DNA from: Alphaproteobacteria bacterium
GTDB lineage: Bacteria; Pseudomonadota; Alphaproteobacteria; Caulobacterales; Hyphomonadaceae
DNA length: 64,000 nt
Reading direction: 5' to 3'
NCBI GenBank assembly: GCA_018830285.1
Contig: JAHJSB010000014.1
Span: forward strand, 1 to 64,000
The notes under the pieces were generated by a model that did no database searches, was not told where the DNA came from, and was given only the letters and a program-made list of their open reading frames with translations. Both the position numbers and the translations under genes were made by a program. Of this stretch, positions 27,485 through 58,028 are shown one piece after another; the stretch's first letter is position 1, and each line of letters begins with the position of its first letter.

Positions 27485-28240
27485 CTACATCCATCCCACG
27501 ATCTGGATGACGCGGTCTTTCCATACAACCAGCAGCCCGACAACTGACAGGGCCAGCAAGATCGTGCCGCCTCCGATCATAAGCGGCGCACCGACAAAGG
27601 CGACCATCAGCTGTGGCAGGGCCTTGTTGATGAAGCCAAGGCAGATATTGTAAAGTAAATTGACAGCAACGAATGGCCAGGCGAGCAGAACCGCGAAGCC
27701 CACAGCAGAGAAACTCCGCTCAATCAGCATGTCCCAGTCGAGGGCCGACAGCGCGCCGACGGGAATGTCAGTATAGAGGCGCATCAGCGACGCGATGGCA
27801 TTCAGGTGGAAGTCGGCTGTCAGCAGAATGGCGGTGCCCGCCATTGAAAGCATGCTTCCGGTGAGACTCTGGGCTTCGCGTTCCAGGGCAACACCGAGAA
27901 GTTGTGACAGACCGATCGACTGCGAAATAATCGTACCGGCGATGCTGAGCATCCACACGGATACGCGCAGGATGGCCCCGAGGCAGAATCCTATCGTAAG
28001 TTCGCTCAACAGAAGCCCGCCGTATCCGGTTAAGGACTCCAGGGATGGGACGGCGACGACACCCGTACTGGCCATCGACATGGCAATCGCCAGCAGAATC
28101 ATGAGACGCAATTGCACCGGCACAACCTGTTCGCCGATTCCCGGCATGAAAAAGATCACGAAGGACAGCCGCGCCACGACCAAAAGGAACATCGACAGAA
28201 GGGGCGCCAGCTGACCCGCCAGTGCCGCAAGGTCGGCCAT
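27485..28240 (-). CDS. fliR: Flagellar export gate protein FliR
   Basis: 251 residues with six hydrophobic segments, FMPGIGEQVVPVQLRL near the N-terminus and FLLVVARLSFVIFF, typical of FliR. It forms the export gate with FliP and FliQ. The start overlaps the flhA stop (ATGA). Confidence 0.95.
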   Translation of the reverse strand: MADLAALAGQLAPLLSMFLLVVARLSFVIFFMPGIGEQVVPVQLRLMILLAIAMSMASTGVVAVPSLESLTGYGGLLLSELTIGFCLGAILRVSVWMLSIAGTIISQSIGLSQLLGVALEREAQSLTGSMLSMAGTAILLTADFHLNAIASLMRLYTDIPVGALSALDWDMLIERSFSAVGFAVLLAWPFVAVNLLYNICLGFINKALPQLMVAFVGAPLMIGGGTILLALSVVGLLVVWKDRVIQIVGWM

Positions 28241-30318
28241 CAGACAACGCCGATAATATACGGCTTGGTCTTTGCTGTGATTTCTTCGTAGGCCAGAACC
28301 GAATTGCGAATGCCTTTGCTCGCGAGGACGGTCTGCAGGAAGCGTCGGCGCCGCGACGACGTCGCTACGGAGGCGATCACGCCCTTCTTGGCCGCGTCAT
28401 TCAATTTCGATTGCACTTCATTGGTCAACTCGCCAAACATTTCGGGCGGCAGCGCGATATCGCTGCTGCCATTCTCATTATTGACCTCATACTGGGTGAA
28501 CTTCTGCTCCCAGTCTGTGGACAATTGAACCAGCGGCAGGCGGCCCTGGTCGTCCTGAAGCCGGTCCACGATCTGGAAGGCGAGACGCTGGCGCACAAGC
28601 TCGACTATCCTTGGCAGACCCGGCGATGAGGCTTTGGCTTCAGCAATCGCCTCGATGATCAGGAACAGGTTGCGGATGGAAACGCGCTCCTCGAGCAGCA
28701 AGCGCGCGACCGACAAGAGCATTTCGGGCGTGACTTTCGCCGGGATATACTCGTCCAGGAAGCGGCGGTTGGCGGCGGCCCGGTCGCTGTCGCTAACGGT
28801 CGTCAATGCATCGAGCGTATCGAGCATGACCATCCGCGTAAAGACCAATGCGAAGTTGGATTGGATCACTTCGAGCATGTGGGTCGCCAGGACCTCAATC
28901 GGCTCGACGACCGGAATGCCAGCTGCGGCCAGCTCCTGCTTCTTGCTGTTGGGCAACCACCGGGCTGCGGCCTTGTAGACGGGTTCCTTGACCTTCTCGC
29001 CTTGCATCTGCGGCGACTGGTCGTCTTCCATGAGTGCGAGGATGGAGCCGGGACGCAGCAAGCCGGAATCAAGGCGAACGCCCTGAATGCGGATCCTGTA
29101 TTCATTCCGCTTCAGCGTGGGATTGTCCGTCATGCGGATCGCCGGCAGAACGAACCCGTATTCTTCCGCGATGTAGCGACGGATTTTGTGGATCCGGCTT
29201 TCGAATCCGTTCTCTCCGAGCAGAACGAGGTTGACCAGATCGGGGGCAACTTCGAGGTGGATCTCGTCGGAATGAATGGAGTCGCCGAACTTCACAGGCT
29301 CGTCGACGGTCAGCTCCGGGACTTTTAGAGCTTCGGCATCCACCTCACGGCTTTTCCGGCGCACAAGGACCGAGGCCGTCGCAAAGCCTGCAGACGCAAG
29401 CATGAACGGCACGAACGGAAGACCGGGAAACAGCGCAAACACGAACAGGATTCCGGCCACGATCATCAAGGCGGCCACGTTGCTGCCGAGCTGCGCCACA
29501 AGGGCGAGGTCGATGGCGCCCTCCTCGCGTCCCTTGGACAGGAGCAGCGCGGATGCCACAGATACGATGACGGCGGGCACCTGCGACACGAGTCCGTCGC
29601 CGACAGTGAGGATGGAGTAATTGCTCAGGGCCTCGGAGAAGCTGAGGTGATGCACGGACAGGCCGATCGCGATTCCCGCAACCAGGTTCAGAGCCGTGAT
29701 CATCAGGCCGGCGATCGCGTCTCCCTTGACGAATTTCGATGCACCGTCGAGGGACCCGAGGAACGCCGCTTCTTCCTGTTCCTTCTGGCGACGTTTTTTC
29801 GCCTCCTCGTGGGTGATGGCACCCACGGCAAGGTCGGAGTCGATCGCCAGCTGCTTACCCGGCATGGCATCGAGCGCAAACCGTGCCCCCACTTCGGCCA
29901 TACGTCCGGCGCCCTTGGTGATAACCATGAAGTTGACGATCACGAGAACGCTGAACACGACCAGGCCAACGAAAAGGTTGCCGCCCATGATGAACATGGC
30001 GAAGCCTTCGATAACGCCGCCAGCTGCCTGTGTTCCCGTATGGCCTTCACCGATGATCAGCTTTGTCGAGGAGACGTTCAGCGCCAGGCGCAGGATCAGT
30101 GAGGCGAGGAGCACGCTGGGAAAGGACGAGAAATCCAGCGGCCGTTCGATGAAAACCGCAGTGGCAAAGATCAGGATTGCGAAGGCGAACGACATGGTCA
30201 GGCCGACATCCATCACCCATGCCGGGATCGGCAGGATCATCACGAGGATAACCATCATCAAGCCTATGGCCAGGAGCGACGTGGGCCGGGCCAGGCCAAA
30301 GTTCTTGGGTGTCTGCAC
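28240..30318 (-). CDS. flhA: Flagellar export protein FlhA
   Basis: 692 residues: eight N-terminal membrane segments with the family signature SSFPSVLLASLILRLALNVS region and the FHIPEP-type cytoplasmic loop GRMAEVGARFALDAMPGKQLAIDSDL, then the cytoplasmic ring domain (MLSVARLLLEERVSIRNL). FlhA converts proton motive force and docks export chaperones. Central gene of the flgB-to-fliJ operon. Confidence 0.97.
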   Translation of the reverse strand: MQTPKNFGLARPTSLLAIGLMMVILVMILPIPAWVMDVGLTMSFAFAILIFATAVFIERPLDFSSFPSVLLASLILRLALNVSSTKLIIGEGHTGTQAAGGVIEGFAMFIMGGNLFVGLVVFSVLVIVNFMVITKGAGRMAEVGARFALDAMPGKQLAIDSDLAVGAITHEEAKKRRQKEQEEAAFLGSLDGASKFVKGDAIAGLMITALNLVAGIAIGLSVHHLSFSEALSNYSILTVGDGLVSQVPAVIVSVASALLLSKGREEGAIDLALVAQLGSNVAALMIVAGILFVFALFPGLPFVPFMLASAGFATASVLVRRKSREVDAEALKVPELTVDEPVKFGDSIHSDEIHLEVAPDLVNLVLLGENGFESRIHKIRRYIAEEYGFVLPAIRMTDNPTLKRNEYRIRIQGVRLDSGLLRPGSILALMEDDQSPQMQGEKVKEPVYKAAARWLPNSKKQELAAAGIPVVEPIEVLATHMLEVIQSNFALVFTRMVMLDTLDALTTVSDSDRAAANRRFLDEYIPAKVTPEMLLSVARLLLEERVSIRNLFLIIEAIAEAKASSPGLPRIVELVRQRLAFQIVDRLQDDQGRLPLVQLSTDWEQKFTQYEVNNENGSSDIALPPEMFGELTNEVQSKLNDAAKKGVIASVATSSRRRRFLQTVLASKGIRNSVLAYEEITAKTKPYIIGVV

Positions 30319-33110: not shown

Positions 33111-33938
33111 TTACAGCAGGCTGAGGAACAGGTTCTGGCTGCCCTGGCTGCCAAGCCCATTGCTCAAGAGTGTGAGCGCTGCCGATGCAGGCGAATAGCT
33201 TGATGCATTTTGTGAGATGGCCGACATGGCGTGAAATCTCTGGATGACTTGTTCGACATTCTCGGGCGCCGTCAGCTCTGACATCTCTCGAATTCCCAAC
33301 GTGCTCTGAAGGCGCTCCTTAAGGATGACTGCCTGACGCTCAAGCGGCAGCTTGCGGATATCCGTCGGCAAGTTGGTCGCACCCTCAAGCAGGGTTCGCG
33401 TAGGCACATCGCCGAGGATCCGATAAAGTATCGTGGTTTCGCTCGCCCCGGTTCCAGCTATTGCGCCGATACCCGACTTGTAGTTGAGGCTGAGCCGCAT
33501 GTTGTCGTCGACTTCGCCTACGGCCGCCTGAAAGGATTTGGCTTCAAAGTCTTCCGCCATACGCGACAGCGCCCCCGGTGACAGGGATATCTTCCCGTCC
33601 ACGATATCCAGCGCTTTGGCGAATGCAGTATATTTCGAATTGTTGAGGCGCGCGAGAAACGTGCTCTCAGGATCGGTCGATTCTTCGAGCACTTTGTCGA
33701 TGAAACCGCGCTTCCACTCTTCACCGCCAAGATCGAAAGATGTGAGAACGACGCGAAGCAGGCGCCGGTCATCGAGAAAGCTTTCGACAGCAACAGGTTC
33801 GGAAAACTTGTCTACGAGATAGTCACGGTCGAGCCGAACCTGCGGCGACTTGGAATAGCTTTCCAACTGGCGGTCATAAGTCGCCTCGAGGAATTTCCAC
33901 CCACCACTGCCGGACAGGGGTATGACGGGTTGAAACAT
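33111..33938 (-). CDS. DUF1217 family flagellar-associated protein
   Basis: 275 residues with two halves that resemble each other (EATYDRQLE...QVRLDRDYLVDKFSEPVAVESFLDDRRLLRVVLTSF), typical of DUF1217 proteins found only in alphaproteobacterial flagellar loci. Exact role is not known to me. Last gene of the flagellin-flaF-flbT unit, four bases after flbT; its end abuts the convergent fliI stop. Confidence 0.8.
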   Translation of the reverse strand: MFQPVIPLSGSGGWKFLEATYDRQLESYSKSPQVRLDRDYLVDKFSEPVAVESFLDDRRLLRVVLTSFDLGGEEWKRGFIDKVLEESTDPESTFLARLNNSKYTAFAKALDIVDGKISLSPGALSRMAEDFEAKSFQAAVGEVDDNMRLSLNYKSGIGAIAGTGASETTILYRILGDVPTRTLLEGATNLPTDIRKLPLERQAVILKERLQSTLGIREMSELTAPENVEQVIQRFHAMSAISQNASSYSPASAALTLLSNGLGSQGSQNLFLSLL

Positions 33939-36601: not shown

Positions 36602-36918
36602 GATATTTTGTCCACTCGCGGTTGAGGCGCGCGGGCGGCATCGAATTTGACCGCATCGGCGAGACCAAGCGGATGAGACGCGGCAATATCTTTCGCAACC
36701 GCCTCGACCACATACCTGGAAAACGCAGAGGCCGCTTCTCCGCCACCCTGGGAGAAGGCTTTCTCCAAACCGGCATGGGTCAGCATTTCGGCCCAGAGCA
36801 TCTGTTCGAACCTTTGGCCAATGTCGGCGGCCTCGGCGTTCGCGAGATTGGCAACCGGCCGGTTCTCGGGCGCCAAAGCCGGCGCGCTGATGGCAGGGAA
36901 AGACACTGGTCCTGTCAT
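36598..36918 (-). CDS. flgJ: FlgJ-like rod-binding protein (no muramidase domain)
   Basis: 106 residues with the rod-binding core IGQRFEQMLWAEMLTHAGLEKAFSQGGGEAASAFSRYVVEAVAKDIA. This is the N-terminal domain of enteric FlgJ only; like other alphaproteobacteria it lacks the C-terminal glycosidase. It caps the growing rod. flgN follows with overlapping codons. Confidence 0.82.
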   Translation of the reverse strand: MTGPVSFPAISAPALAPENRPVANLANAEAADIGQRFEQMLWAEMLTHAGLEKAFSQGGGEAASAFSRYVVEAVAKDIAASHPLGLADAVKFDAARAPQPRVDKIS

Positions 36919-37034
36919 TTAACACTCCGCAGTCAAACAAAATTTAAGAAGTGAACGAAATCGCTTCGAATATTAACGTACTTTTTACGCGGCGTGGTTT
37001 TTATTCGGTTAACGCTTAACTCATCAGGCAAAAA

Positions 37035-38462
37035 ATGGCATTCACTCTCGATACGATTTTGTCCGGTCGGCCAGCCCGCGAATCGTCGGATTCCGGCAAC
37101 CGCCCACTGTCGCCAAGCGGCAAAGGCGCCGAATTTGCGAAAATCCATTCCAAGTTCGAGACCGATAAGCGTGACCGAGACGAGTCCGACTTGCTGGCCG
37201 GGGCCGATACCGGCCAGGTCGCTGCGTCTGCCATTCTGATCAATGGCCCGCTGGAAGATGGCGGTCAGCTCGGCGAAATGCTCGCCATCGCGGAGAATAC
37301 CGCAGAGCTTGCCGGAAACCCCCAAGCCCTACCGGCTGCCGAATCGCCTGAAACATCCGACGTGCCGCTGACAACAGCCGATGTGATCGAAATGCCCCAT
37401 GGCACGCTTGAGGAACTGGCGCCTGACAGGATGGAGGTGCCTGTTGACCTACTGGCTGCCGGGCGCGCCGGGGCGCCAGAGGGTCTCGCCGAGCAAAATG
37501 CAACGGAGGTTGACGCCGATAGTGCTAAACTGGCGCTTCCAGCGCCTGGGCCCGATCAGACCAATGTGTCAACACGCCCGACCGCGGATACAGACAGTCC
37601 TCCAGAGGCTGATATCGTCGCCCTGCCGGGACGCGCAGACCCTGCGCTTCAATCGACGCTCGCTAGCGCAATCAGTCCGGTCGCCGCAAACGTTACTCCA
37701 ACGACCAAGGGCTCGGACAAAGTGGGCGCTGCTGCACCCGCCCCCGCCTCGCCAAAGGCATCCGCGCTGACAGGTGATGACGTATCGACGACGAGCAACA
37801 GGTCAGCCAGGACAAGCGCCCCGGCTGACTTCCTCACAGGCGATGGCGAACAAATTGCATCCACCGCCCAGGGGCAAAATCCCGATACAGTCCCAGACAT
37901 TGCGACAGGTACAAAAGCCGTAAATCCGCTGGATATGGCTATGTCGACTCAGTCGGGTCTGCCGCAACCGCCAGCAGCGACGCTGGCACCCGCCGTTCCG
38001 ATAACTGGCGCGATGACACCAGCATACAGCCTGATTTCTGCAACACCCGCACAAGTCGTCGAAATTATTTCCGATTCCATCGCCGCGCCGGAAGACCAGA
38101 AGAGTCGCATCCATATCCAGCTGGATCCGCCCGAACTCGGTCGCGTTTCGATCGATTTCAAGTTCGATGCAAACGGGCTCCAGCATGTGACGGTTACGGG
38201 CGAAACGCCCGAAGCGCTTCGCCATTTGCGCGCGATGCATTTTGAATTGGTCAATGCGCTCGAGCGCCAAGGCCTGTCGAGCCAGAACATGTCGTTTCAG
38301 CAGAACCAGACGCAGCAGGACCCCGGTCAGCAGGCGGCGCGTGCGGGCCGGACCGACCGTGATGTCGTCGCCGACGTCGACCTGGTCGCGACGTCCATGG
38401 CCGCAGCACGCAATTCGCAGCCCCATTCTGCAGCGGCTGGCAGCCTCAATATCAAACTATAA
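37035..38462 (+). CDS. fliK: Flagellar hook-length control protein FliK
   Basis: 475 residues: long low-complexity Ala/Pro/Asp-rich N-terminal ruler region and a C-terminal Flg_hook domain (RIHIQLDPPELGRVSIDFKFDANGLQHVTVTGETPEALRHLRA) followed by a Gln-rich tail (QNMSFQQNQTQQDPGQQ). It measures the hook and triggers the FlhB switch. flgD follows by 11 bases. Confidence 0.93.
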   Translation: MAFTLDTILSGRPARESSDSGNRPLSPSGKGAEFAKIHSKFETDKRDRDESDLLAGADTGQVAASAILINGPLEDGGQLGEMLAIAENTAELAGNPQALPAAESPETSDVPLTTADVIEMPHGTLEELAPDRMEVPVDLLAAGRAGAPEGLAEQNATEVDADSAKLALPAPGPDQTNVSTRPTADTDSPPEADIVALPGRADPALQSTLASAISPVAANVTPTTKGSDKVGAAAPAPASPKASALTGDDVSTTSNRSARTSAPADFLTGDGEQIASTAQGQNPDTVPDIATGTKAVNPLDMAMSTQSGLPQPPAATLAPAVPITGAMTPAYSLISATPAQVVEIISDSIAAPEDQKSRIHIQLDPPELGRVSIDFKFDANGLQHVTVTGETPEALRHLRAMHFELVNALERQGLSSQNMSFQQNQTQQDPGQQAARAGRTDRDVVADVDLVATSMAAARNSQPHSAAAGSLNIKL

Positions 38463-41624: not shown

Positions 41625-42338
41625 CTATCGTTCGCGAACGGTCGATATGAGTTGCCCGATACGCTGGTCTTCGCGCTCGAGAAGGGTTTGTCCGGCTTCA
41701 TAGGCCCGCTGGACTTCGATCATCCGTGCGACTTCAAGAACTGGCGACACATTTGACTGTTCCAGTGCTCCCTGAACCACGCTGAAGTCCGTCGCATTCC
41801 GGAAGCCGTCGGGCGCCGAAAAGTAAGTGTTTGAGCCACGCATGAGCGCACCATCAGCTGTCACGATACCGATCTGCTCAAGCTGCTCTCCATCGACCGA
41901 GATCGTACCGTCTCCGGAGATGGAGACCTGCCTAGCCTCAGGCGGAATGTTGATCGGACCACCGCCGGCACCGAGCACGTTGTTTCCAATCGCGTCGATC
42001 AGCGTGCCTTCGGATGAAAGCTGGAAATGGCCAGCTCGTGTAAGACGCGTTCCTTGCGGTGTTTCGATTGAGAAGAAGCCGTCTCCCTGGACCGCTAGAT
42101 CGAACTGGCCGCCAGTGACGTTCAGGCCGCCCTGTTCCATTTCGAAGGCATGTCCGGCCAGAGCGCCCATAGAAAGCGACATTTCTCCGGGTCCGGAATT
42201 AACGAGGTATTCCGCAAAAATAGCCTTGTCTGTCTTGTAGCCAGTGGTGCTCGAATTGGCGAGGTTGTTGGAAACAACCTGCATTTCCTGCATGAGACCC
42301 TGTTGCCGCGCGAGTGTAGCGTAAATCGCATTGGACAT
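41625..42338 (-). CDS. flgF: Proximal rod protein FlgF
   Basis: 237 residues: LARQQGLMQEMQVVSNNLANSSTTGYK, FDLAVQGDGFFSIETPQGTRLTRAGHFQLSSEGTLIDAIGNNVL and C-terminal RMIEVQRAYEAGQTLLEREDQRIGQLI. It follows the unknown secreted protein with a one-base stop/start overlap (TAATG). Confidence 0.95.
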   Translation of the reverse strand: MSNAIYATLARQQGLMQEMQVVSNNLANSSTTGYKTDKAIFAEYLVNSGPGEMSLSMGALAGHAFEMEQGGLNVTGGQFDLAVQGDGFFSIETPQGTRLTRAGHFQLSSEGTLIDAIGNNVLGAGGGPINIPPEARQVSISGDGTISVDGEQLEQIGIVTADGALMRGSNTYFSAPDGFRNATDFSVVQGALEQSNVSPVLEVARMIEVQRAYEAGQTLLEREDQRIGQLISTVRER

Positions 42339-44107
42339 TAATTGCTCCCCCTTGAGGATGGCGCAGATGCAAGCGGCGTGGACTTCAGCAAGTCGGTCAC
42401 ACGAGCGATTGACATCGGACCCGCTGGCATAATGTCGCCTTGTGCGGCCCGCTTAAGGCTTGCCACACGCGCAACGCGCTGCTCATGATCGCCGCCCGTG
42501 AGTTGATCGGCCGCATCGTATATCCGGTCCGATACAAGCCAGTGACCCGACACCGCATCTTGCTCGATCAGTGCCAGAATGATGTCCGACTGCAAAGGCA
42601 ACCGGCTCTCGATCTTGCTGAGCAATGCCTGGTTTTGTTCTTTGATTGCACTCTTTGCGGCCAGCTCGTTGATGCGACTATCGCGAGGATGGCCGTCGGC
42701 GAGCATGTAGACTTCCCTATAGTCCTGACGCCGGAACGCGAGCGTTGCGATCTGCAGGCTCACCGCGTCATCGGTCACTGCCTTCGCGGACAGATTGCTC
42801 GCCATCGCGCCGAACCCGAAATGGATGGCGCGTTCTGTCGCTGTCTTGAAGATCCGGTCTCTGCTCGGTTCATTGTCGAGCAGTCCGGACTCGCCGGACA
42901 GGGCGCTGATCGCAGCAAGGTTGCGCAATGGATCATCGCCACCCAGATCGCGGTCGAGACTCGCCACGAGTTGACGCCTCACTTCTGCCTGGGCTTCCGG
43001 ATTTTGCAGCGCCGGCATTTCTGCGAGCTTCATGATCGGTTGATAGCGGGACCGGGCACTCAACTCCTGAAGCGCGAACTGAAGGCTGGCTGCGAGGTGC
43101 TTGTCGCTGTTCTTGTCCTGGCCAAACTTCTGCATCAGGTCGCCGAGCAGAATCTCTTCGTAGGCGGGATCCATCGGTCGTTGTCGGCGCAGCATGGCTG
43201 CTAGCGCAGGCTCCTGAAACTGAGGGTGGCCGAGGAATTCGACAATCGTCCGTTCAGCGGCAGAATCCCCGCTATCCAGGTTGACGAGTGCACTCACGAA
43301 CTGCAGTTCCGACGAGTTCGCCACCTGCTCCTCGTCAAAGTCCGCCATCAGCTTTTTCGCCAGCGCTTTCTCACCAATGCGTTCCAGTTCCGGGATGCTG
43401 AGAGCCGCATAGTCAACCCGAAGCTGGAGAGGGAGTTTGCGGAAGCCGGAAAGAGATTCCTGGAGAGTCTGAGCTCCCTCGGCCTGTCCGCCAACAAGCA
43501 GCGCCAGGGCCAACCAGAGCCCCGAATCCTTCTGGCAGGATGCCATCTCCCGGAAGAAGCGCACATCGGGCTTGCTCCGGTCTTGCATGAGCGTTGCCAG
43601 ATTTCGGTATGGCGCAAAGGCCGGGCCAGGTGTGCGTTTGAGCACCATTATGGCTTCAGGGTACAGTCCAAGGGCAATGTACGCCTTAGCCATTTCGCTG
43701 AGCGCAACAGGCAGGACCGTCTTGTCTGTTGTGGTGCCGACTGCTTCTCGAACGGAATATATTTCCTGGTAGCGCCCGATCTGCTGGACGTTGGTGAAGT
43801 CGAGTGCGTAGGGACTGTCGCAGGCGCTATAGCGCTCCTCAGCGACCGGGGCGTGAGGGGGAACCGAACCCGCCGCTGGAGTTGTCGCCTGATGATCGGG
43901 ACCGGACGGTCCGGCAGGTTCCGCCTGCGCCTCGTCTACGGGCGTCAACAGGCCCTCACTGATCGCGCCGCGCACGAAAGAATCAAGATCGGACGAGAGG
44001 TCTGACTTGCGAGTCGACCTGTCCGCCGCCGCTGAATCCGGCCCAGCCGCCATCGCCTGGGCAACCAGGCAAAAGCTTAAGAGGAGTATCCAGGGATAGC
44101 GTTTCAT
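42338..44107 (-). CDS. Secreted helical-repeat protein between motA and flgF, function unknown
   Basis: 589 residues with a signal peptide (AMAAG) and a long alpha-helical body with TPR-like spacing (VALSEMAKAYIALGLYPEAIMVLKR, ALAALMRRQRPMD). Two cysteines (SACDSPYAL and ASCQKDSG) could pair in the periplasm. It is locked in the operon: start overlaps motA by four bases and stop overlaps flgF by one. Position recalls rhizobial MotC, a periplasmic stator partner, but similarity is not evident by eye. Probably a periplasmic motor accessory. Confidence 0.75.
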   Translation of the reverse strand: MKRYPWILLLSFCLVAQAMAAGPDSAAADRSTRKSDLSSDLDSFVRGAISEGLLTPVDEAQAEPAGPSGPDHQATTPAAGSVPPHAPVAEERYSACDSPYALDFTNVQQIGRYQEIYSVREAVGTTTDKTVLPVALSEMAKAYIALGLYPEAIMVLKRTPGPAFAPYRNLATLMQDRSKPDVRFFREMASCQKDSGLWLALALLVGGQAEGAQTLQESLSGFRKLPLQLRVDYAALSIPELERIGEKALAKKLMADFDEEQVANSSELQFVSALVNLDSGDSAAERTIVEFLGHPQFQEPALAAMLRRQRPMDPAYEEILLGDLMQKFGQDKNSDKHLAASLQFALQELSARSRYQPIMKLAEMPALQNPEAQAEVRRQLVASLDRDLGGDDPLRNLAAISALSGESGLLDNEPSRDRIFKTATERAIHFGFGAMASNLSAKAVTDDAVSLQIATLAFRRQDYREVYMLADGHPRDSRINELAAKSAIKEQNQALLSKIESRLPLQSDIILALIEQDAVSGHWLVSDRIYDAADQLTGGDHEQRVARVASLKRAAQGDIMPAGPMSIARVTDLLKSTPLASAPSSRGSN

Positions 44108-44970
44108 GCCGCCTTTTTCGCCTCTCGTAACGCCTGCTCCACTTCATCAAACGACGGCCGCACGCGTGACGGCGCATGACGCCGCGCGACTTCCACGCAA
44201 ATGCTCACCGGATTGAGGTGCAGGTTCGAGACAAGAATCTCGCCGATCATTGTGTAGAAGGCATGTTCTTCTGTGCGTACCCCCTTAACCTTGGTGGCAA
44301 ATGGCCCAACGACCCCATACGCGAGAAACACGCCGAGGAAAGTACCCACAAGCGCGCCGCCAATCATGCCACCAAGAATTTCCGGCGGCTTGTCAATTGA
44401 GGCCATGGTTTTGATAACCCCCAGAACAGCAGCAACAATCCCCAACGCCGGCAGGGCATCTGCCATGTTTTGAAGGGCATGCGATCCGTGAAGATTGTTC
44501 TCCGCGAGCTGCTCGATCTGTTTCTGCAAGAGCTCTTCTACCTGGTGCACATTGTCAAAATTCATGATCATTGAACGGAGGGTATCGCAAATAAGCTCAA
44601 TCGCGTAATGGTCCTTGAGAATTCTCGGATACTTGGAGAAGATGCTCGATTCTTCGGGCGCTTCGATATGCGCCTCCAGCTCGACCGGATTCTGCTTCAT
44701 CAGATTGAGCAGTTCGTGCATCAGGCACAACAGGTCCTGATAATCCGTTTTCTTCCACTTGACGCCTTTGAAGACCGCCACCACGTCGCCGCCAGTGTGC
44801 TTGATCGTGTTCATGTCATTGCCAACCAGGAATGCGCCCACCGCGGCGCCACCGATCATCATCATTTCGAATGGCAAGGAATGGGTGATAATACCCATCT
44901 TACCCCCGGCAAGTATGTACCCGCCGAAGACCATGGCCACCGTGACGATCAGGCCCAGAATTGCGTTCAC
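44104..44970 (-). CDS. motA: Stator proton-channel protein MotA
   Basis: 288 residues, four membrane segments: MNAILGLIVTVAMVFGGYILAGG, a large cytoplasmic loop, then MADALPALGIVAAVLGVIKTM (Pro of the proton path) and GVVGPFATKVKG (second conserved Pro). It is paired functionally with motB, which is encoded in the opposite direction 1.1 kb away. Confidence 0.96.
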   Translation of the reverse strand: MNAILGLIVTVAMVFGGYILAGGKMGIITHSLPFEMMMIGGAAVGAFLVGNDMNTIKHTGGDVVAVFKGVKWKKTDYQDLLCLMHELLNLMKQNPVELEAHIEAPEESSIFSKYPRILKDHYAIELICDTLRSMIMNFDNVHQVEELLQKQIEQLAENNLHGSHALQNMADALPALGIVAAVLGVIKTMASIDKPPEILGGMIGGALVGTFLGVFLAYGVVGPFATKVKGVRTEEHAFYTMIGEILVSNLHLNPVSICVEVARRHAPSRVRPSFDEVEQALREAKKAA

Positions 44971-45018: not shown

Positions 45019-45912
45019 CTATCTTATTGTCCGGGCGAAACTCGCGGATACCGGCGTGTGAAGCTTCACCGCACGCTGCCGCTTCCAAACCCCGAGTTCT
45101 CCGGTGCCAATATCCACGCTTCCGTGAATGGTCTCCGCGCAAAGCGATAGGCGACCGGCATCAGCGCTTGCCAGCGGCAGCACATCGCCGATTTCCAGCC
45201 GTGAACATTCGCCGATCGTAAGCGTCATTCTGTCCAGAACAGCATCCAGCGAAATGGCGGACGCCTTGACGCTGTCGCTCAAGGATTTCGGGCTCTGCGA
45301 GCATGCCTGGGCCTTGAGATCAGCAGTCCGGCGCACATCATTTCGCGCATAGGTCTGCAAATAGTCGACTTCAAACAGGCATGTGACCACAGATGGCTGG
45401 CCGTCGAGCGTGAGCGTGAACTCGACCTTCAGATACCGGCTTGCATCGGCGAACCCGCCAGCAGTCGCTGCGGCGTCGGATTGCGGGTCGTCGCGTGAAC
45501 GCACGTCATGTCCGGTCAACCCTTCTGCCAATCGCTGCCAGAGCGCGATCGTTGGCTGCTCGCTAAGTAGCTTGAGAAACAGTGGGGATGCGTCTTCGAG
45601 GCTTGACGGATCCTGACGCAGACGGATTGCTGCGCACCGGATCGCACAGGCAGCATCGAAGGCGACAGCGCATAGCCCTGGCGATACGTCTGAGGCAAAA
45701 AATAAGGTAAACGGATTTTCCGCGATGTCGGCCGCCACGCGTCCGCTCACAACCCGGCGACTGGATATAATCGGCTCACTTTCGAGGTCAAACGCGTCCG
45801 TCGCCCAGTCTTCAGTCCTAGACAGCAATTGCGTCCAAAACTCCTGCATCTGCAGAATCGATGGGGGCACACCGGCCCCGGAATCTATCTTTTTTCGCAG
45901 GACCGCAGACAC
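45019..45912 (-). CDS. fliM: Divergent FliM-like C-ring protein, GTG start
   Basis: 297 residues. The C-terminal about 70 residues form a SpoA/FliN-type domain (LDRMTLTIGECSRLEIGDVLPLASADAGRLSLCAETIHGSVDIGTGELGVWKRQRAVKL), and the middle resembles a degenerate CheC-like fold. The usual FliM N-terminal CheY-binding LSQxEID motif and the GGxG loop are not seen. As the only FliM candidate in an otherwise complete locus and just upstream of motA, it probably is the switch protein. Start is GTG 45912 after AGGTGA. Confidence 0.65.
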   Translation of the reverse strand: MSAVLRKKIDSGAGVPPSILQMQEFWTQLLSRTEDWATDAFDLESEPIISSRRVVSGRVAADIAENPFTLFFASDVSPGLCAVAFDAACAIRCAAIRLRQDPSSLEDASPLFLKLLSEQPTIALWQRLAEGLTGHDVRSRDDPQSDAAATAGGFADASRYLKVEFTLTLDGQPSVVTCLFEVDYLQTYARNDVRRTADLKAQACSQSPKSLSDSVKASAISLDAVLDRMTLTIGECSRLEIGDVLPLASADAGRLSLCAETIHGSVDIGTGELGVWKRQRAVKLHTPVSASFARTIR

Positions 45913-46060: not shown

Positions 46061-46912
46061 GTGGGACTTATGGAAATCCAACAAGCTGCAATCGTTCAGC
46101 CGATCATCATCAAGCGACGCCGAGTTGTAAAAGCTGACGGGCATCATGGTGGTGCGTGGAAAGTGGCATACGCAGACTTCGTGACGGCTATGATGGCGTT
46201 CTTCCTGCTCATGTGGCTGCTGAACGCGACGACCGAAGAGCAGCGCAAAGGCCTTGCCGACTATTTCAGTCCCACGATTCCCATTTCCAGAATATCAGGC
46301 GGCGGCTCTGACGGACTGAACGGATCCTCCATCATGACCGAGGAAACCTATGCCAAGAACGGCACTGGCGCATCGGAGCGGCACCCCAGCTCCGCTTCAT
46401 TCGAAGGGAAGAAAGAGACCGACGCAGCCAAGGAAGCGGCGATCTCCAAGGAAGCGGCGATCTCCAAGGAACTTGAGACCTTGAAGCAATCGCTGACCGA
46501 GGAGGGCAGCCGCTTGTCGGAACACATGCTCATCAAGATGTCACCGGAAGGCATTGTCCTTGAGATAACCGATTCAGAGGATGCTCCGCTGTTTCCTGTC
46601 GGACAAAGCGTGCCGTCAACCCTTCTGAGTGACATGCTCGACCTCGTCGCCAACTCGTTTGCAACATTCGAAAACAACATCAAGATCGTTGGGCATACCG
46701 ACAGCCTGAGTTATCGAGACGGTGCGACGTATGACAATTGGAACCTGTCTGCCGACCGGGCAAATGCCGCGCGGAAATTGCTGCTGGAATCACACCTCGA
46801 TCCGGACCGGATCCTTGAGGTTTCCGGGAAAGCCGATACCGACCCCCTGGTTGAAGACAGTCCGTCTGCGGCCCAAAATCGCCGGATATCAATTACGATA
46901 CTAACCCGTTAA
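46061..46912 (+). CDS. motB: Stator peptidoglycan-binding protein MotB
   Basis: 283 residues: single membrane helix with the proton-binding Asp in WKVAYADFVTAMMAFFLLMWLL, plug and linker with a short repeated segment, and OmpA-like domain (KIVGHTDSL, SADRANAARKLLLES, GKADTDPL). It anchors MotA to the cell wall. A second ATG at 46070 is possible. It heads motB-flgE-flgK-flgL-flgI. Confidence 0.96.
   Translation: MGLMEIQQAAIVQPIIIKRRRVVKADGHHGGAWKVAYADFVTAMMAFFLLMWLLNATTEEQRKGLADYFSPTIPISRISGGGSDGLNGSSIMTEETYAKNGTGASERHPSSASFEGKKETDAAKEAAISKEAAISKELETLKQSLTEEGSRLSEHMLIKMSPEGIVLEITDSEDAPLFPVGQSVPSTLLSDMLDLVANSFATFENNIKIVGHTDSLSYRDGATYDNWNLSADRANAARKLLLESHLDPDRILEVSGKADTDPLVEDSPSAAQNRRISITILTR
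46430..46465 (+). repeat. 18-bp tandem duplication inside motB linker
   Basis: Two exact copies of an 18-base unit (AAGGAAGCGGCGATCTCC) encode KEAAIS twice, in the linker between the membrane helix and the OmpA domain. An in-frame slippage product that lengthens the linker. Confidence 0.85.
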
Positions 46913-51908: not shown

Positions 51909-53045
51909 CTAGGCCGCCGCGGTTGCGTCCTCAGGCGCATTGTCCGGCTCGATCTTGACGAGTTCGATCTGCCCGCCGCGCTTCAACTTCATCAACAGAG
52001 ACAGGAAATCGCGGTGGACGATATCGATCTGCGCCTGCGACAAGTCTTTGAACTCGGTCAGCTGATCACGAAGCTTTTCAGCCAGACGTGGCGAGATGCT
52101 CTTGAACAGGAATTCGGAAACCTCGTCATTGCCTCCCCTCAGGCTGCCCATCAACTTCAGCGTCGCTTCTTCATCGAGTTCGCGGAAGATGATCGGCACC
52201 GCCGTGGGCGGCAGCATGTCGGGAAGCCCCTCAATCGTGAACATTGACTGCTGAATCTGCTTATACTTGTCCTCATACTTGCCTTCCAGGAACTTGACGA
52301 GCTCATCGCGTTTCTGGGCAGGGATCAGGCTGAGCAGCTCTCCAATATCGGCAAGATGTTCGTCGTTTCCACCGAGTTCCTCTTGCGTCGCGTTCAGGAA
52401 TTCCAGTTCGATCATCCGAGCAAGCACCTGATCGATACCGGGATCGTCGGCCTGGCTTTCGACCATGAAGCCCATTGCGGGCCCCAGCTTGTCGCCTTCC
52501 ATGTAATTGAGCACGTCGGAAGCAATCGAAACGTCCAGTTTGCGCAGGATCAGCGCGATGATGTTCGGGGTCAGTCCCTCAAGGTAGCCGGCAATTTTCT
52601 TCGGATCGCTCTTTGCAAGCCGCGACCAGGGTGTCTCATTTGCCGCCTTCGTCGTGGGTGCCGCAATTTCTGTCGGCGCGTCTCCGAGGATCGAACTAAG
52701 GCGCTCAGCATCGAGAACACCGGTGAGCACCTCGCGGGCCTTTTCCCTGCCGCCCCGCAATGCACCATTCGAGTGGCGAAGATGCGAAAGAAAATCGATA
52801 GCGATCATGATCATCTCGTCGCGCGTGACAAAGGAAAGGTCTTGCAGCGCTTCGGCGATCTTCACCATTGCGGTGTCATCCAGCTTTTCGACGATCGGCT
52901 TGGCCGCGCCGTCACCCAGCATCGTAATGATCACCGCAGCGCGCTGCGATGGCGTAATGCTTGACTTGCTGGCGGCCGAGCGCGCGGTATCGGCACCCCG
53001 CAGCGTCAGCCCTGTGCTCACGGTGGGTTTGGGTTGCGTACTCAT
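51909..53045 (-). CDS. fliG: Flagellar motor switch protein FliG
   Basis: 378 residues: SQRAAVIITMLGDGAAKPIVEKLDDTAMVKIAEALQDL (N domain), MiddleD with LEFLNATQEELGGNDEHLADIGELLSLI, and C domain DEVSEFLFKSISPRLAEKLRDQLTEFKDLSQ that contacts MotA. A Pro/Ala tail ends the protein. The ATG at 53045 overlaps the fliP stop; an upstream in-frame ATG at 53087 lies inside fliP. It is last in the fliF operon rather than next to fliF. Confidence 0.95.
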   Translation of the reverse strand: MSTQPKPTVSTGLTLRGADTARSAASKSSITPSQRAAVIITMLGDGAAKPIVEKLDDTAMVKIAEALQDLSFVTRDEMIMIAIDFLSHLRHSNGALRGGREKAREVLTGVLDAERLSSILGDAPTEIAAPTTKAANETPWSRLAKSDPKKIAGYLEGLTPNIIALILRKLDVSIASDVLNYMEGDKLGPAMGFMVESQADDPGIDQVLARMIELEFLNATQEELGGNDEHLADIGELLSLIPAQKRDELVKFLEGKYEDKYKQIQQSMFTIEGLPDMLPPTAVPIIFRELDEEATLKLMGSLRGGNDEVSEFLFKSISPRLAEKLRDQLTEFKDLSQAQIDIVHRDFLSLLMKLKRGGQIELVKIEPDNAPEDATAAA

Positions 53046-53821
53046 CCCGAATATCCTCTTAACACCGCTTCGGTGACCTTGAGCCAACCATCTGCCAAAA
53101 TGAAGAATCCAAGCTTAAAGGGCAAGGAAACAACTGTCGGGGGCACCATCATCATACCCACGGCCATCAGAACCGATGCCACGACCAGATCGATCACCAT
53201 GAAGGGCAGGAAGATGACAAAGCCGATCTGGAAGGCATGCTTGACTTCAGACAACATGAATGCCGTTGCCAGCAGCGAAAAGGACGGCGCTTCTCCCGCC
53301 GGCACGGGGCGGTTCACGGCATCCCCCAGGATATCAATGGTTGTCGCTTCCACGCGCCGCATCATGAATTCACGGAACGGGTCCGTCGTCTGGACCCATG
53401 CCTGCTCTTCCGTCAGGACGCCATCCATGTAGGGGGAAATGCCCGAGTCCCACGCGGTCATGAAAACAGGCTCCATGATGAAGAATGTCAGGAACATGGC
53501 CAGTGCCATGATCATCATATTCGGCGGGGCCTGTGGCACACCAATCGCCTGACGCATGAACGAAAAGACGATGACCATGAATGGCAGGCAGGTCACCATC
53601 ATGGCGATCGCCGGCACGAGGCTCAAGACCGACACAAGCAGGAACAGCTGGATGGTAGAACGGCTGAGCCCGCCACCCGCGCCGTTCAGCACGTCATTTA
53701 GTCCGGCAGCAATCGGTTCTGACTGCACGCCTTGCGCATATGCGGCAGACACAAGGCAAACCGACGCGGCAAGGACAACTCCAAGAAAACGGGTTGCGCC
53801 GCCAATCCTAGCCAATGGCAT
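53042..53821 (-). CDS. fliP: Flagellar export gate protein FliP
   Basis: 259 residues: signal sequence (AAYAQG), then FLLVSVLSLVPAIAMMVTCLPFMVIVFSFMRQAIGVPQAPPNMMIMALAMFLTFF and FMLSEVKHAFQIGFVIFLPFMVIDLVVASVLMAVGMMMVPPTVVSLPFKLGFFILADGW. Forms the core of the export channel with FliQ and FliR. It overlaps fliN by 14 bases. Confidence 0.96.
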   Translation of the reverse strand: MPLARIGGATRFLGVVLAASVCLVSAAYAQGVQSEPIAAGLNDVLNGAGGGLSRSTIQLFLLVSVLSLVPAIAMMVTCLPFMVIVFSFMRQAIGVPQAPPNMMIMALAMFLTFFIMEPVFMTAWDSGISPYMDGVLTEEQAWVQTTDPFREFMMRRVEATTIDILGDAVNRPVPAGEAPSFSLLATAFMLSEVKHAFQIGFVIFLPFMVIDLVVASVLMAVGMMMVPPTVVSLPFKLGFFILADGWLKVTEAVLRGYSG

Positions 53822-54131
53822 CGCCGGCCTGCTCTTCCAACTCGGTAATCTTCACCCCGAGAGACCCATCCTCTGTTTCGACAAGCTCGCCGCGGGCGAT
53901 GATCTTGTTGTCGATTGCCAGCTCCACCGGGTCGTCAATGCGTGAGGTCAGCGGCACGACCGATTCTGGTCGCAGCTCGAGGATATCCGAGACGCTCAGG
54001 CGCGCCTGTCCGATCGATACGGTCACCGTGACCTGCACATCGAAAATCGAGCGGCGATACTTGTTCGCGTCAGAATCGTCCCGGCGGTCAAGATCGGCCT
54101 GTGCCTGAGGGGTCTGTTCGGGCTTGGACAT
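53808..54131 (-). CDS. fliN: Flagellar motor switch protein FliN
   Basis: 107 residues: hydrophilic N-terminus and a SpoA domain (DVQVTVTVSIGQARLSVSDILELRPESVVPLTSRIDDPVELAIDNKIIARGELVETEDGSLGVKI). C-ring component. The ATG at 54131 is chosen because family length starts there; the frame runs to 54200 within fliH. Confidence 0.93.
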   Translation of the reverse strand: MSKPEQTPQAQADLDRRDDSDANKYRRSIFDVQVTVTVSIGQARLSVSDILELRPESVVPLTSRIDDPVELAIDNKIIARGELVETEDGSLGVKITELEEQAGDAIG

Positions 54132-54135
54132 GCTT

Positions 54136-54744
54136 CTACTCTTCAATCGTGGGTGAGGATGGTTCCAATCGGGCGAGGCATGCATTGAGCAGACCGTCAA
54201 AATCGAATGTCAGGCCCCCTGTTTCCCAGGAAACATGGACCTGTCCATCGTCCGATTTTTCGGTCGGAACGACGGAGCAGCGCTCGGACAGGGACGCCGT
54301 TTTGTCGACAAGGTCCCGAAGCTTCTCCAACAGAGCCGGCTGCGCGCGGATTTCGACGGCCGGCGCCGTGGACGGAATCATGCCGGGCAAGTGCCGCCCA
54401 ATCTCTTCGGCCAGGAATAATCTGGACAGTTCAGGAAACAGTCTCGACGCGATTGACTGCGTTATGCTGACGGCCCGTTCGCGTGATTCCTGCTCCAGCC
54501 GTTCGATCGTGTCGGACAGCGCCGTGAGCATTATCTCGATCTCGGCGAATTCCGGAACGCGCCCCGATGCTGTCTGGGCAGGCTCAGGTTCATCCCGCGC
54601 GGCAGAGGCCAATGCGTCTTGAGCCGAATCGATGCCCCCCTCTTCGACGGGCAACTGGCCCAGCAGCAACCGGCGAGAGCCCGACGCCGGCGGCGGAGGG
54701 GCGCTATCAAAGCGGGGCAAATTGGAGAGGAATGCCTCACTCAT
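54136..54744 (-). CDS. fliH: FliH/FlbE-like ATPase regulator
   Basis: 202 residues: proline-rich N-terminus (DSAPPPPASGSRRLL), central coiled-coil (MLTALSDTIERLEQESRERAV) and a C-terminal domain (VEIRAQPALLEKLRDLV...VHVSWETGGLTFDFDGLLNACL) of the FliH/FlbE type. It binds FliI and docks it to the C ring. Its start overlaps the fliF stop by eight bases. Sequence similarity is modest; position between fliF and fliN supports it. Confidence 0.8.
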   Translation of the reverse strand: MSEAFLSNLPRFDSAPPPPASGSRRLLLGQLPVEEGGIDSAQDALASAARDEPEPAQTASGRVPEFAEIEIMLTALSDTIERLEQESRERAVSITQSIASRLFPELSRLFLAEEIGRHLPGMIPSTAPAVEIRAQPALLEKLRDLVDKTASLSERCSVVPTEKSDDGQVHVSWETGGLTFDFDGLLNACLARLEPSSPTIEE

Positions 54745-56254
54745 TGACGGCGGCCTTCCGGTCTTCGTTCAGCCATTCCTGAAGGATCGCAGCGGCGTCA
54801 TCCTGGCGTCCCATCGTATAGTCTTTGAGGGACACGAAGGGATCTGGCCCGCCGACGCCTCCGCCAGCGGCGAAGAAATCATCGCCCGCAGCTCCAGATT
54901 GTGCGTTTCCATTCTGGCTGAGCATGGGCCGGATCACACCGAAAGCCAGGACGATAACCACAAGTCCCAGAACGAGAATCTTCACGCCGGACCAGAGATA
55001 ACGCTCCGTCAATTGCTGGACCAGGCTGGGCGCTTCCACCATTTCCACGACTTCAGGCGGCTGGAATGGCATGATTTCGACTGTCAGATCGTCTCCCCGG
55101 CTCGTATCCAGACCAGCTCCTGAAATGATCAGTTGCTTGAAATCCGAGATCATCTGGTCGGTCAGCGCGGCCGCATCGGCAGCAGCCGGATCGATTCCCA
55201 GGACCTGGTCATTGAGGAGAACGGCGATCGAAATTCGCTCAATAGCGCCGGGCATTGTCTCGGTTTCGGTCCGTGTCTCGTTGATCTCGTACGATACATT
55301 TTCCGACGAATTCCTGGCTGTGCTGTTGGATGATCCGCCCGACTGTCCACTCTCCTGTGGTAGATTGCTCGCTGCCGTAATGCCCGCAGACGTCCCGCCG
55401 CTGGATTCGCTGACATCACCGCTTGAGCGGTTGCGAACGACCCGCGAATCCGGATCGAACATGACGGCTGACGTCATCTGGCGTTCATGACTGACGTCGA
55501 CGGACACCGAAACACGCGCGTTGTTCGGGCCGACGCGCGCCTCTAGCAGGCGCAGGATTTTCTGCTCGAGCATACCTTCTTGCGTTTCCGCCTTGAGGCC
55601 CGGCTTCTCAGCGGAATCGACGCCAGGGCCTGCGAGAATGCCTTTTTTCGAGTCGATCACGGCAACTTCGTCCGGGCTCAGTCCCGACACAGCCAGCGCG
55701 ACAAGATACTGGATGGCCTGCGCCTGTGCGCCGGACAGGTCGCGGGCAGCGGCGATCGTCACAGACGCCGTCTGCTTCGGTTCCGATCGCGCAAATCCGG
55801 ATCGAAGGCTTGCGCCGATATGAACGCGGACAGACTGGACGCCCGGAATCGCCAGGATGGTACGCGTTAGTTCACCCTCTTTGGCGCGCCAGTAAGCGGC
55901 ATTGTACATTTCGGATGTCACGGAGAAGCCGTTAACCTCGTCAAGCAGTTCATAACCCTGAACGGATTGCTGCGGCAGGCCCGATCTCGCGAGCGAGAAC
56001 CGGACGGAATCGCGGTCCTTCTGCCCGACGAAAATGGCGTCGCCCCGGATTTCGTACTGGGTGCCCCGCTTTTCGAGTTCGTCGATGATTTCGCCCGTAC
56101 TGGCTGGCTCGAGCCCTGCGTAGAGCAGTGTCATCGGCTGTTGCATGGCGCCCCGTACGAGGAAGGTCATCGCAAGCGTGACCCCCAGTATGGCAAACAC
56201 CAACATCATTTGCCGCTGCAAAGGCAGCGTTCTCAAAGTAGCGATGAAACTCAT
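54737..56254 (-). CDS. fliF: MS-ring protein FliF
   Basis: 505 residues: first membrane helix (MMLVFAILGVTLAMTFLV), ring-building motifs (LLYAGLEPASTGEIIDELEKRGTQYEIRGDAIFV, QTASVTIAAARDLSGAQAQAIQYLVALAVSGLSPDEVAVID), NARVSVSVDVSHERQ, and a C-terminal helix plus FliG-binding tail (DPFVSLKDYTMGRQDDAAAILQEWLNED). First gene of fliF-fliH-fliN-fliP-fliG. The ATG at 56254 is preferred to 56290. Confidence 0.96.
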   Translation of the reverse strand: MSFIATLRTLPLQRQMMLVFAILGVTLAMTFLVRGAMQQPMTLLYAGLEPASTGEIIDELEKRGTQYEIRGDAIFVGQKDRDSVRFSLARSGLPQQSVQGYELLDEVNGFSVTSEMYNAAYWRAKEGELTRTILAIPGVQSVRVHIGASLRSGFARSEPKQTASVTIAAARDLSGAQAQAIQYLVALAVSGLSPDEVAVIDSKKGILAGPGVDSAEKPGLKAETQEGMLEQKILRLLEARVGPNNARVSVSVDVSHERQMTSAVMFDPDSRVVRNRSSGDVSESSGGTSAGITAASNLPQESGQSGGSSNSTARNSSENVSYEINETRTETETMPGAIERISIAVLLNDQVLGIDPAAADAAALTDQMISDFKQLIISGAGLDTSRGDDLTVEIMPFQPPEVVEMVEAPSLVQQLTERYLWSGVKILVLGLVVIVLAFGVIRPMLSQNGNAQSGAAGDDFFAAGGGVGGPDPFVSLKDYTMGRQDDAAAILQEWLNEDRKAAVNE

Positions 56255-56273
56255 GACCCAGCAATTCTGTTTA

Positions 56274-56289
56274 TGGCAGTATTTCTGCA
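56274..56289 (+). promoter_or_regulatory. Sigma-54-like promoter upstream of the second fliL gene
   Basis: TGGCAGTATTTCTGCA matches TGGCAC-N5-TTGCA at 9 of 11 defined positions, with GG and GC exactly 12 bases apart. It reads toward fliL2; predicted start near 56300, about 80 bases before the ATG. ATGGTTAA (CtrA half-site complement) follows at 56290-56297 and may serve the divergent fliF. Confidence 0.7.
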
Positions 56290-56382
56290 ATGGTTAAAAT
56301 TAAGCGGGTAATTGTTAACGGTTCCTTTACCCCAAAATTTGATTAACAGCATTGTGGGGTTTTAAGTCTGAATCGGGTTCAC

Positions 56383-56907
56383 ATGGCGAAGGGCAAGGGC
56401 GCAAAAGCGGTCGATGACGCAGCACCAGAGTCGGCGCCTGTCGAAGCGAAAGCGGGTGGCGGGATACTCGGTATCGCGCTGCTGGCTATCGGCGCCATCG
56501 TTAGCTCTTTTGCGACGGTCTATTTTCTCTCGCCCGCTCCCGCTGCCGAAGTTGCAGTGTGCGAAACAGAAGAATCAGCTTCTCATGCTGAATCAGCTAT
56601 TAAACCGAACCAGTCCTACGTCGAACTGCGAGATATCCTCATTACGATCGGTAGCGCCCCCGCGACGCGCTACCTCAAGATGAAAGTGGCCATCATCACT
56701 GACAGTGGAGACATCTCAACAGTGAACGAGGCGGAACCCGTGCTGATCGATGCATTCACAAATTACCTTCGCTCTGTTGAGCTCAGCGATTTCGAAAATC
56801 CCGGTTTCTATTCCCACATGCGGGATCAGTTGGACCGCCGTTCACAGCTCGTCCTGGGCGGCAGTGTATCCGACGGTGTCCTGATCACCGAATTCCTGTT
56901 GAGATGA
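56383..56907 (+). CDS. fliL: FliL-like basal-body protein, copy 2
   Basis: 174 residues: cytoplasmic basic N-terminus, one membrane helix (about 27-50), and a C-terminal FliL domain (YVELRDILITIGSAPATRYLKMKVAIITDS...VEPVLIDAFTNYLRSVELSDFENPGFYSHMRDQL). The VLITEFLLR ending is typical of FliL. It is a paralogue of the protein at 39124-39690 but lacks the Lys/His linker. First gene of fliL2-unknown-motE; sigma-54-like site upstream. Confidence 0.85.
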   Translation: MAKGKGAKAVDDAAPESAPVEAKAGGGILGIALLAIGAIVSSFATVYFLSPAPAAEVAVCETEESASHAESAIKPNQSYVELRDILITIGSAPATRYLKMKVAIITDSGDISTVNEAEPVLIDAFTNYLRSVELSDFENPGFYSHMRDQLDRRSQLVLGGSVSDGVLITEFLLR

Positions 56908-56911
56908 GACG

Positions 56912-57403
56912 ATGAATTTTGAACCCACCGATATAGCCATTGTCCTGGTATCGTTCGCGGCCTGCGTATATTGCTTCGTGCTCAATCGACGCCTGAAGGC
57001 GCTGCAGAACACGAAGGACGGACTTGGCGCCACGATCATGGCCATGTCGAAGTCCATCGCAGCGATGTCGAACTCGACACAGGAGACACGGTCGCATGTC
57101 GGGGAAATGGCCGTTCGGTTGTCGAGCCTGCTGCAGGACGCCAACCAGACCTGCGAGCGACTCGAAACCTTGCAGGCCTCGCTGGAGGCCACGCAGCAGA
57201 ACGCCGTCGACCAGGTGACGGCAACGCAAACAGAGCTTGGCATCATGATGCGGATCATCCTCGATCAATCGAAGACCCGAATCATGGAAATGACGAAGCT
57301 GATGCAACGGCTTCGGGATCTGACAGATGCTGCAGGCGACGTGCCGAATGCTGCCGCTCCTGTTCGGACCAAGCAAAAAGCCGTTCCGCATCGGGTAGGC
57401 TAG
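56912..57403 (+). CDS. Flagellar-locus membrane coiled-coil protein, DUF6468-like
   Basis: 163 residues: one N-terminal membrane helix (IAIVLVSFAACVYCFVLNRRLKALQ) and a long helical cytoplasmic region (TQETRSHVGEMAVRLSSLLQDANQTCERLETLQASLE). I associate this layout with DUF6468 proteins that sit between fliL and motE in alphaproteobacteria, though I cannot verify the profile. Four bases separate it from fliL2 and four from motE. Function unknown. Confidence 0.65.
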   Translation: MNFEPTDIAIVLVSFAACVYCFVLNRRLKALQNTKDGLGATIMAMSKSIAAMSNSTQETRSHVGEMAVRLSSLLQDANQTCERLETLQASLEATQQNAVDQVTATQTELGIMMRIILDQSKTRIMEMTKLMQRLRDLTDAAGDVPNAAAPVRTKQKAVPHRVG

Positions 57404-57407
57404 CGCC

Positions 57408-58028
57408 ATGAAAACGCTCGATAAACGCGGGTCCTACGTTCTCCTCTCTCTCGGATTCCTATTCGCGATCGGTGCCGCCGTCCGGTTCCTGCCCAGCAGC
57501 TTTGCGATCGCGAGCGAGACGCTTCCCGGCGAGCATTCCGAAACGGAAGGCATGGACCCTGCCGATACATCCTCTGCGGCGGTGAAAGTGGAGCCGATCA
57601 ACCAGGTCTGCTTCAGCGAAGAAACGGCGGCGACGCTGGCCGCCGACCAGAAGGCGATGGAAACCCAGTTCGAAGAACTGACCGAACAGGAATTATCGCT
57701 CCAGACGCGGCAACAGGAACTGGATCGCCGGGCGGCTGATCTGGACGCGTTGCAACAAACACTCGCGGCGCGCTGGAAGGAAATGCAGACCGCCTCGGAT
57801 GAAGACCTCATACATCTCGCCCGGATGTACGGCACGATGAAGCCGGACCAGGCTGCCGCAATTTTCAACCAGATGGATCCTGATTTTGCCGGCAGCTTCC
57901 TGCGCCTCATGCGAAGCGAGCAGGCTGGCCTCATCCTGGCCAGCATGGAAACCCGCAAGGCCTATGAAGTAAGCCTGAAACTGGCGGAGATGAATGAAGA
58001 CATCCGCCAGACCGACGCATCGAACTGA
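57408..58028 (+). CDS. motE: MotE-like flagellar stator/chaperone protein
   Basis: 206 residues: one N-terminal membrane helix, an acidic linker, a coiled coil (EELTEQELSLQTRQQELDRRAADLDALQQTL), and a C-terminal MgtE-N-like repeat (LIHLARMYGTMKPDQAAAIFNQMDPDFAGSFLRLMRSEQAGLILASMETRKAYEVSLKLAEMN). In rhizobia MotE is a periplasmic chaperone of MotC. Last gene of the fliL2 unit, convergent with the BCCT gene. Confidence 0.8.
   Translation: MKTLDKRGSYVLLSLGFLFAIGAAVRFLPSSFAIASETLPGEHSETEGMDPADTSSAAVKVEPINQVCFSEETAATLAADQKAMETQFEELTEQELSLQTRQQELDRRAADLDALQQTLAARWKEMQTASDEDLIHLARMYGTMKPDQAAAIFNQMDPDFAGSFLRLMRSEQAGLILASMETRKAYEVSLKLAEMNEDIRQTDASN

Follow-up and report, generated by a model that had tools for sequence, protein, structure and literature searches.

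We analyzed a 64,000-nt stretch of DNA (hereafter the window; NCBI GenBank assembly GCA_018830285.1, contig JAHJSB010000014.1, positions 1 to 64,000) from a member of the Hyphomonadaceae. The window is contig C7 in our numbering and belongs to a 3.56-Mb genome that is 99.7% complete. It carries a flagellar gene cluster with a divergent fliM, an open reading frame (ORF) of 297 amino acids at 45019-45912 on the minus strand. The gene belongs to a minus-strand run, fliM-motA-TPR-flgF-flgG-flgA-flgH-fliL, and is separated by 48 bp from motA; both genes start with GTG, and the GTG start of fliM is ordinary. A TGA stop codon lies two codons 5' of this GTG in the same frame, and an in-frame N-terminal extension is therefore impossible. 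In the relatives that we extracted, a start codon occupied the matching place, preceding S-x-V-L-R-K-K or a closely similar sequence. An earlier reading by a model that saw only the DNA (the sequence-only reading) had proposed a highly divergent, GTG-started FliM in a motA operon, and the ORF, its strand, its length and the short gap to motA bear this out.

Pfam recognized only a C-terminal SpoA domain in the protein, as a single stretch (PF01052, E = 1.4e-7, above the curated cut-off), in line with the SpoA-type domain noted earlier. The FliM equivalog model TIGR01397 scored the protein at 19.4 bits, its cut-off being 219.6. PF02154, the FliM middle domain, had no match in the whole genome, with a sensitivity of 4 matches among 14 controls. 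The FliM middle-domain fold was found in the predicted structure. Foldseek placed two-domain FliM chains of C-ring structures at the top (8wiw, E = 2.4e-9; 8umd, E = 5.1e-9), followed by FliY at 1.6e-4, with which isolated FliM middle domains tied. A profile of the window-type FliM (A1) matched PDB sequences weakly, the best hit being a FliM-FliN SpoA fusion (E = 0.0074). The filing as a divergent FliM rests on fold, position and phyletic pattern, not on a family model, and the C-ring role of the protein, paired with FliN, is putative.

The phyletic pattern was obtained from a survey of 105 genomes of the family. Near full-length relatives, a single copy in each case, were found in 66 genomes, and the ORF is therefore not a chance one. 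FlhA was present in 92 genomes. A window-type FliM occurred in 65 of these, alongside a full-length FlhA (673-707 bits) in 63 and FlhA fragments in two (G052 and G017). The remaining 27, designated type A, had either full-length FlhA scoring 746-870 bits or FlhA fragments. FliM proteins with PF02154 occurred in 25 genomes, all of type A, and no genome contained both kinds. Among the 13 genomes without FlhA, window-type FliM was detected in G023 alone (87% complete). Of the 47 named loci, 46 had the gene order MotB(<-) FliM(->) MotA(->); L163, the exception, ends at a contig edge before motB. The dN/dS ratio (Nei-Gojobori) was 0.099-0.158 in all four pairs compared. A tblastn search of plasmids with the window FliM gave no match.

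The nearest named relatives indicate that the window comes from a Hyphomonas. Thirty-eight of the named loci are labelled Hyphomonas, Henriciella or Hyphomonadaceae, four carry broader alphaproteobacterial labels, two Aquisalinus, and three are metagenome bins with names of Acidobacteria type. These last (L164, a bin named Candidatus Sulfopaludibacter, and L160 and L171, Acidobacteria) contained a Hyphomonas-type flagellar cluster, and are probably misbinned or misnamed. In L164, an MCP-like gene lies between fliG and flgI.

The CheY-binding motif of the LSQxEIDxLL type was absent from all 50 window-type FliM sequences, including the window's own, and the same pattern was positive in 25 of 25 type-A FliM. 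No tail of the LSxxEIDxLL kind was matched in the six frames of the window. The short N-terminal segment (residues 1-17) reads MSxVLRKKIxAGxGxPP. Where the GGxG loop would be expected, the window-type family has RxxQD, an equivalence drawn by inspection and not by superposition; the regular expressions GGxG and GG..G matched 9 and 14 of the 50 sequences, apparently elsewhere. Both the tail and the loop had been reported missing by the sequence-only reading. The E[HY]PQ motif was found in none of 25 window-type FliG (25 of 46 loci were kept; 21 had no match at E 1e-10 or were 250 aa or shorter), versus EYPQ in 12 of 12 type-A FliG.

No CheW-domain protein, a class that should include CheA, was found in the genome. 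Such proteins were present in 6 of the 66 genomes with window-type FliM versus 23 of the 27 type-A genomes. The six positive genomes (G046, G051, G059, G072, G010 and G017) all showed the same N-terminus, [M/V]SxVL[RQ]K. Since these relatives, and also a plasmid-borne one directly followed by a che operon (see below), are tail-less, the missing tail is not simply a consequence of missing che genes. In G046, a CheW gene lies within 10 kb of fliM.

We conclude, with a probability of about 0.86, that the ORF encodes the FliM of a flagellum in a Hyphomonas species that resembles the fla1 flagellum of Phaeobacter inhibens (Tomasch et al. 2025, PMC12363192), tail-less and without a chemotaxis phosphorelay. 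From its predicted fold, the protein would form the C-ring wall between FliG and FliN in the assembled ring. A tomogram of the Hyphomonas neptunium motor has been published (map 5313, listed in a table of PMC7693769). Given the absent tail and an N-terminus of just some 12 residues ahead of the middle domain, CheY would be unable to bind FliM as it usually does, and such docking was presumably lost. The lack of CheW-domain proteins means that CheA and CheW are missing, and the motor is thus not driven by a chemotaxis phosphorelay. Rotation would most likely be fixed or intrinsically set, or would respond to other input such as stator or cyclic di-GMP control. The earlier suggestion that this motor may not use CheY as usual was right in substance. 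Such a naturally occurring motor, whose FliM is tail-less and whose genome has no CheA or CheW, lets one ask what the C-ring does without CheY on FliM.

A genome-wide search with PF01052 yielded four proteins above the cut-off: two FliNs, the window FliM and a further protein, FliM2. FliM2 (contig C58, 362 aa) carries the tail LSSAEIEALL and a GGxxG loop. A second C-ring set, also elsewhere in the genome, consists of a mini-FliF, FliG2, FliH2, FliN2, FlhF and FleN, with FliM2 and FlbT2 apart from the rest. The mini-FliF is a two-helix protein of 213-237 aa that carries the FliG-binding helix. FliM2 was matched in all 13 family genomes without FlhA (clearly in 11, weakly in G001 and G013), and FliG2 in 9 of them. 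An hhalign comparison of the window-type FliM (A1) with FliM2 (A2) was not significant (probability 0.9%, E = 0.058); at the sequence level the two are not recognisably alike. FliM2 loci and type-A FliM loci had no common neighbours within 1.5 kb. The FliG motif varied in FliG2 (n = 39: EHPQ 10, ERAQ 10, EHAQ 8, others 11). Together with EYPQ in type A and the GGxG and GG..G matches in window-type FliM, this weakens the case for a co-change of EHPQ and GGxG. FliG2 grouped with type-A FliG, apart from window-type FliG, in an unrooted tree with long branches that carries a long-branch-join warning and omits every second row of two groups. A protein of 420 aa that no Pfam family matches above the cut-off (L009:12953-14215 and orthologues) lies between MarC and a DksA-like gene upstream of FliM2 at 11 of 11 loci.

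The sequence-only reading was right that the 32-kb locus shows no further FliM, but its description of the window protein as the only switch candidate does not hold across the genome, as FliM2 lies on C58. It had named a canonical FliM elsewhere as a refutation; none of the PF02154 type was found in the genome, although the PF01052 search recovered the tailed FliM2. The flagellum might then use FliM2, the window ORF being an accessory SpoA protein or both being mixed in one ring. We regard this as unlikely. FliM2 persists in the FlhA-less genomes and lies outside the flagellar cluster, whereas window-type FliM is part of the flagellar operon and tracks the flagellum in 65 of 65 genomes, and the likely partner of FliM2, FliG2, does not group with window-type FliG. 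FliM2 thus follows the C-ring remnant kept without FlhA, not the window flagellum, and does not refute the assignment of the window ORF as the flagellar FliM.

It is also very improbable that the ORF is a SpoA protein of the FliY or SctQ type, the other refutation that had been put forward, even though FliY appeared among the structural matches. Two-domain FliM chains led the Foldseek ranking. The CheC/FliY phosphatase active site has the signature E..N, which was absent from the window FliM and found at the corresponding place in 1 of 42 relatives. SctQ would have two SpoA stretches, where the window protein has one; its context is a flagellar operon, no injectisome locus was found, and the only FHIPEP protein in the genome is the FlhA of the flagellar cluster, so that an injectisome export gate is lacking. 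A FliM in decay after loss of chemotaxis, building no working switch, would fit the absence from the genome of CheW domains and the absence of the tail, the GGxG loop and the EHPQ/EYPQ motif of FliG; the low dN/dS values and conservation in 66 genomes make decay hardly credible.

The other features of the window motor, and the second C-ring set, are collected in Table 1.

Table 1 Features of the flagellar cluster in the window and of the second C-ring set.
Feature	Position	Strand	Remarks
FlhA	28240..30318	-	only FHIPEP protein found in genome
DUF1217 protein	33111..33938	-	adjoins flbT; CP1 position in fla1 clusters
Two ORFs beside fliK	36221-36940 and 36933-37325		no Pfam family; may not be genes
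589-aa protein	42338..44107	-	weak TPR signal; CP4 equivalent of Rhodobacterales fla1 by position alone
MotA	44104..44970	-	stator protein; next operon gene after fliM
Divergent FliM	45019..45912	-	297 aa; N-terminal segment 1-17, middle-domain fold ~13-191, SpoA ~215-290
MotB	46061..46912	+	divergent from fliM; fliM/motB junction common to Paroceanicella and Aquisalinus
FliG	51909..53087	-	of window motor; SDPK at expected FliM-binding motif EHPQ/EYPQ
FliP	53042..53821	-	
FliN	53808..54200	-	SpoA
FliH	54136..54744	-	assigned from its place between fliN and fliF; no Pfam match
FliF	54737..56290	-	full length (517 aa)
FliL-like protein	56383..56907	+	
CP2 equivalent	56912..57403	+	by position; 31% over 85 residues to Paroceanicella protein, E 7e-13
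CP3 equivalent	57408..58028	+	by position; 31% to Paroceanicella protein, E 3e-18
Second C-ring set	C46:1-4727 (L007, window's genome); C58:86570-91318 (L009)		kept partly or wholly in FlhA-less family genomes

The 589-aa protein at the CP4 position had no BLAST similarity to the Paroceanicella protein. The CP3-type protein weakly matched MgtE_N/FliG_M (E = 3e-5 and 9e-4) and is perhaps a MotE-like chaperone or a ring protein.

The text of PMC12363192 describes four essential uncharacterised proteins, CP1-4, states that these and fla1 are absent outside Rhodobacterales, and presents the Rhodobacterales flagellar clusters as lacking che genes. Its text and Table 1 name fliG and fliN and not fliM; "FliM" occurs once, in the reference list, and the cluster gene PGA1_c35740 has no name in the text. 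According to that description, fla1 and the window share the blocks motB-flgEKLI, fliP-N-H-F, fliL-CP2-CP3 and motA-CP4, as well as a DUF1217 gene beside flbT, with CP1 and CP4 matched by position only. A fla1-like cluster is present here in the Hyphomonadaceae (Hyphomonas is placed by NCBI in the order Hyphomonadales), although fla1 is called absent from other orders in that text. The window ORF points to a rotor-switch gene in a cluster type whose Rhodobacterales relatives are described there without a named fliM.

Across 385 genomes sampled class-wide, four genomes outside Hyphomonas had an FlhA with 53-56% identity to that of the window; the next among the matches listed was at 43% or less. 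Three of the four, from one family, follow the fla1 gene order. Relative to these, the window has the motB-to-CP3 segment inverted and other blocks moved, and additionally contains fliG and the divergent fliM. A query FliM had no match in these three genomes, and neither FliM nor FliG was recognisable in their clusters (60 kb each); in the fourth (G161), the query matched on another contig. A profile search for a hidden FliM in the 60-kb flagellar regions of all four found none. The query matched 171 of 182 genomes with ordinary FlhA and 11 of 32 with weak FlhA matches. It missed one of the two Hyphomonas genomes in the sample, and a divergent FliM may therefore hide in the three genomes.

On plasmid pD4M1D of Paroceanicella profunda, FliM (WP_138578674.1) adjoins MotB and is followed by genes for STAS, a response regulator, CheA, CheW, MCP, CheR, CheD, CheB and a response regulator. 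Pfam FliM starts at residue 14, and no tail was found in 100 in-frame codons upstream. Like the window FliM, it lies beside motB in a fla1-like cluster, is tail-less and has an alignable SpoA domain (30%, E = 1e-9); unlike it, it is recognized by PF02154, keeps GG in the loop, stands first in a che operon and has a partner FliG with EHPQ. There, fliM and motA are separated by the che genes as well as the fliG-to-fliF block and fliL-CP2-CP3; the fliM-motA neighbourhood of the window thus requires rearrangement. A simple deletion of che genes was considered and is not supported, given the other blocks in this interval, and is weakened further by the clusters without che genes described in the text of PMC12363192. 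The che genes may have been gained in Paroceanicella or lost in the window lineage.

The second C-ring set is a remnant of a Caulobacter-like fliF locus. It shares the synteny SciP-fliF-fliG-fliH-fliN ... flhF-fleN and the FliM tail motif with type-A Hyphomonadaceae; unlike their locus, it has no flhA, its FliF is cut to about 225 aa, and it is kept in FlhA-less genomes. The chances are about even that Hyphomonadaceae retain a flagellum-independent C-ring, made of mini-FliF, FliG2, FliH2, FliN2 and the tailed FliM2 and, in some of the genomes, lying beside FlhF and FleN. No such ring in Hyphomonadaceae was found in a literature search that covered few subscription papers. Kept in genomes that lack a flagellar export gate, it would represent a piece of a rotary motor retained for a different purpose.

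Compared with canonical FliM (PF02154 plus PF01052; E. coli, Salmonella, Caulobacter), the window FliM has neither CheY-binding tail nor linker, no GGxG at the expected loop, scores below the FliM model cut-offs and has a partner FliG without EHPQ/EYPQ. It shares with canonical FliM the middle-domain fold, the SpoA domain, the flagellar operon and the partners FliF, FliG and FliN.
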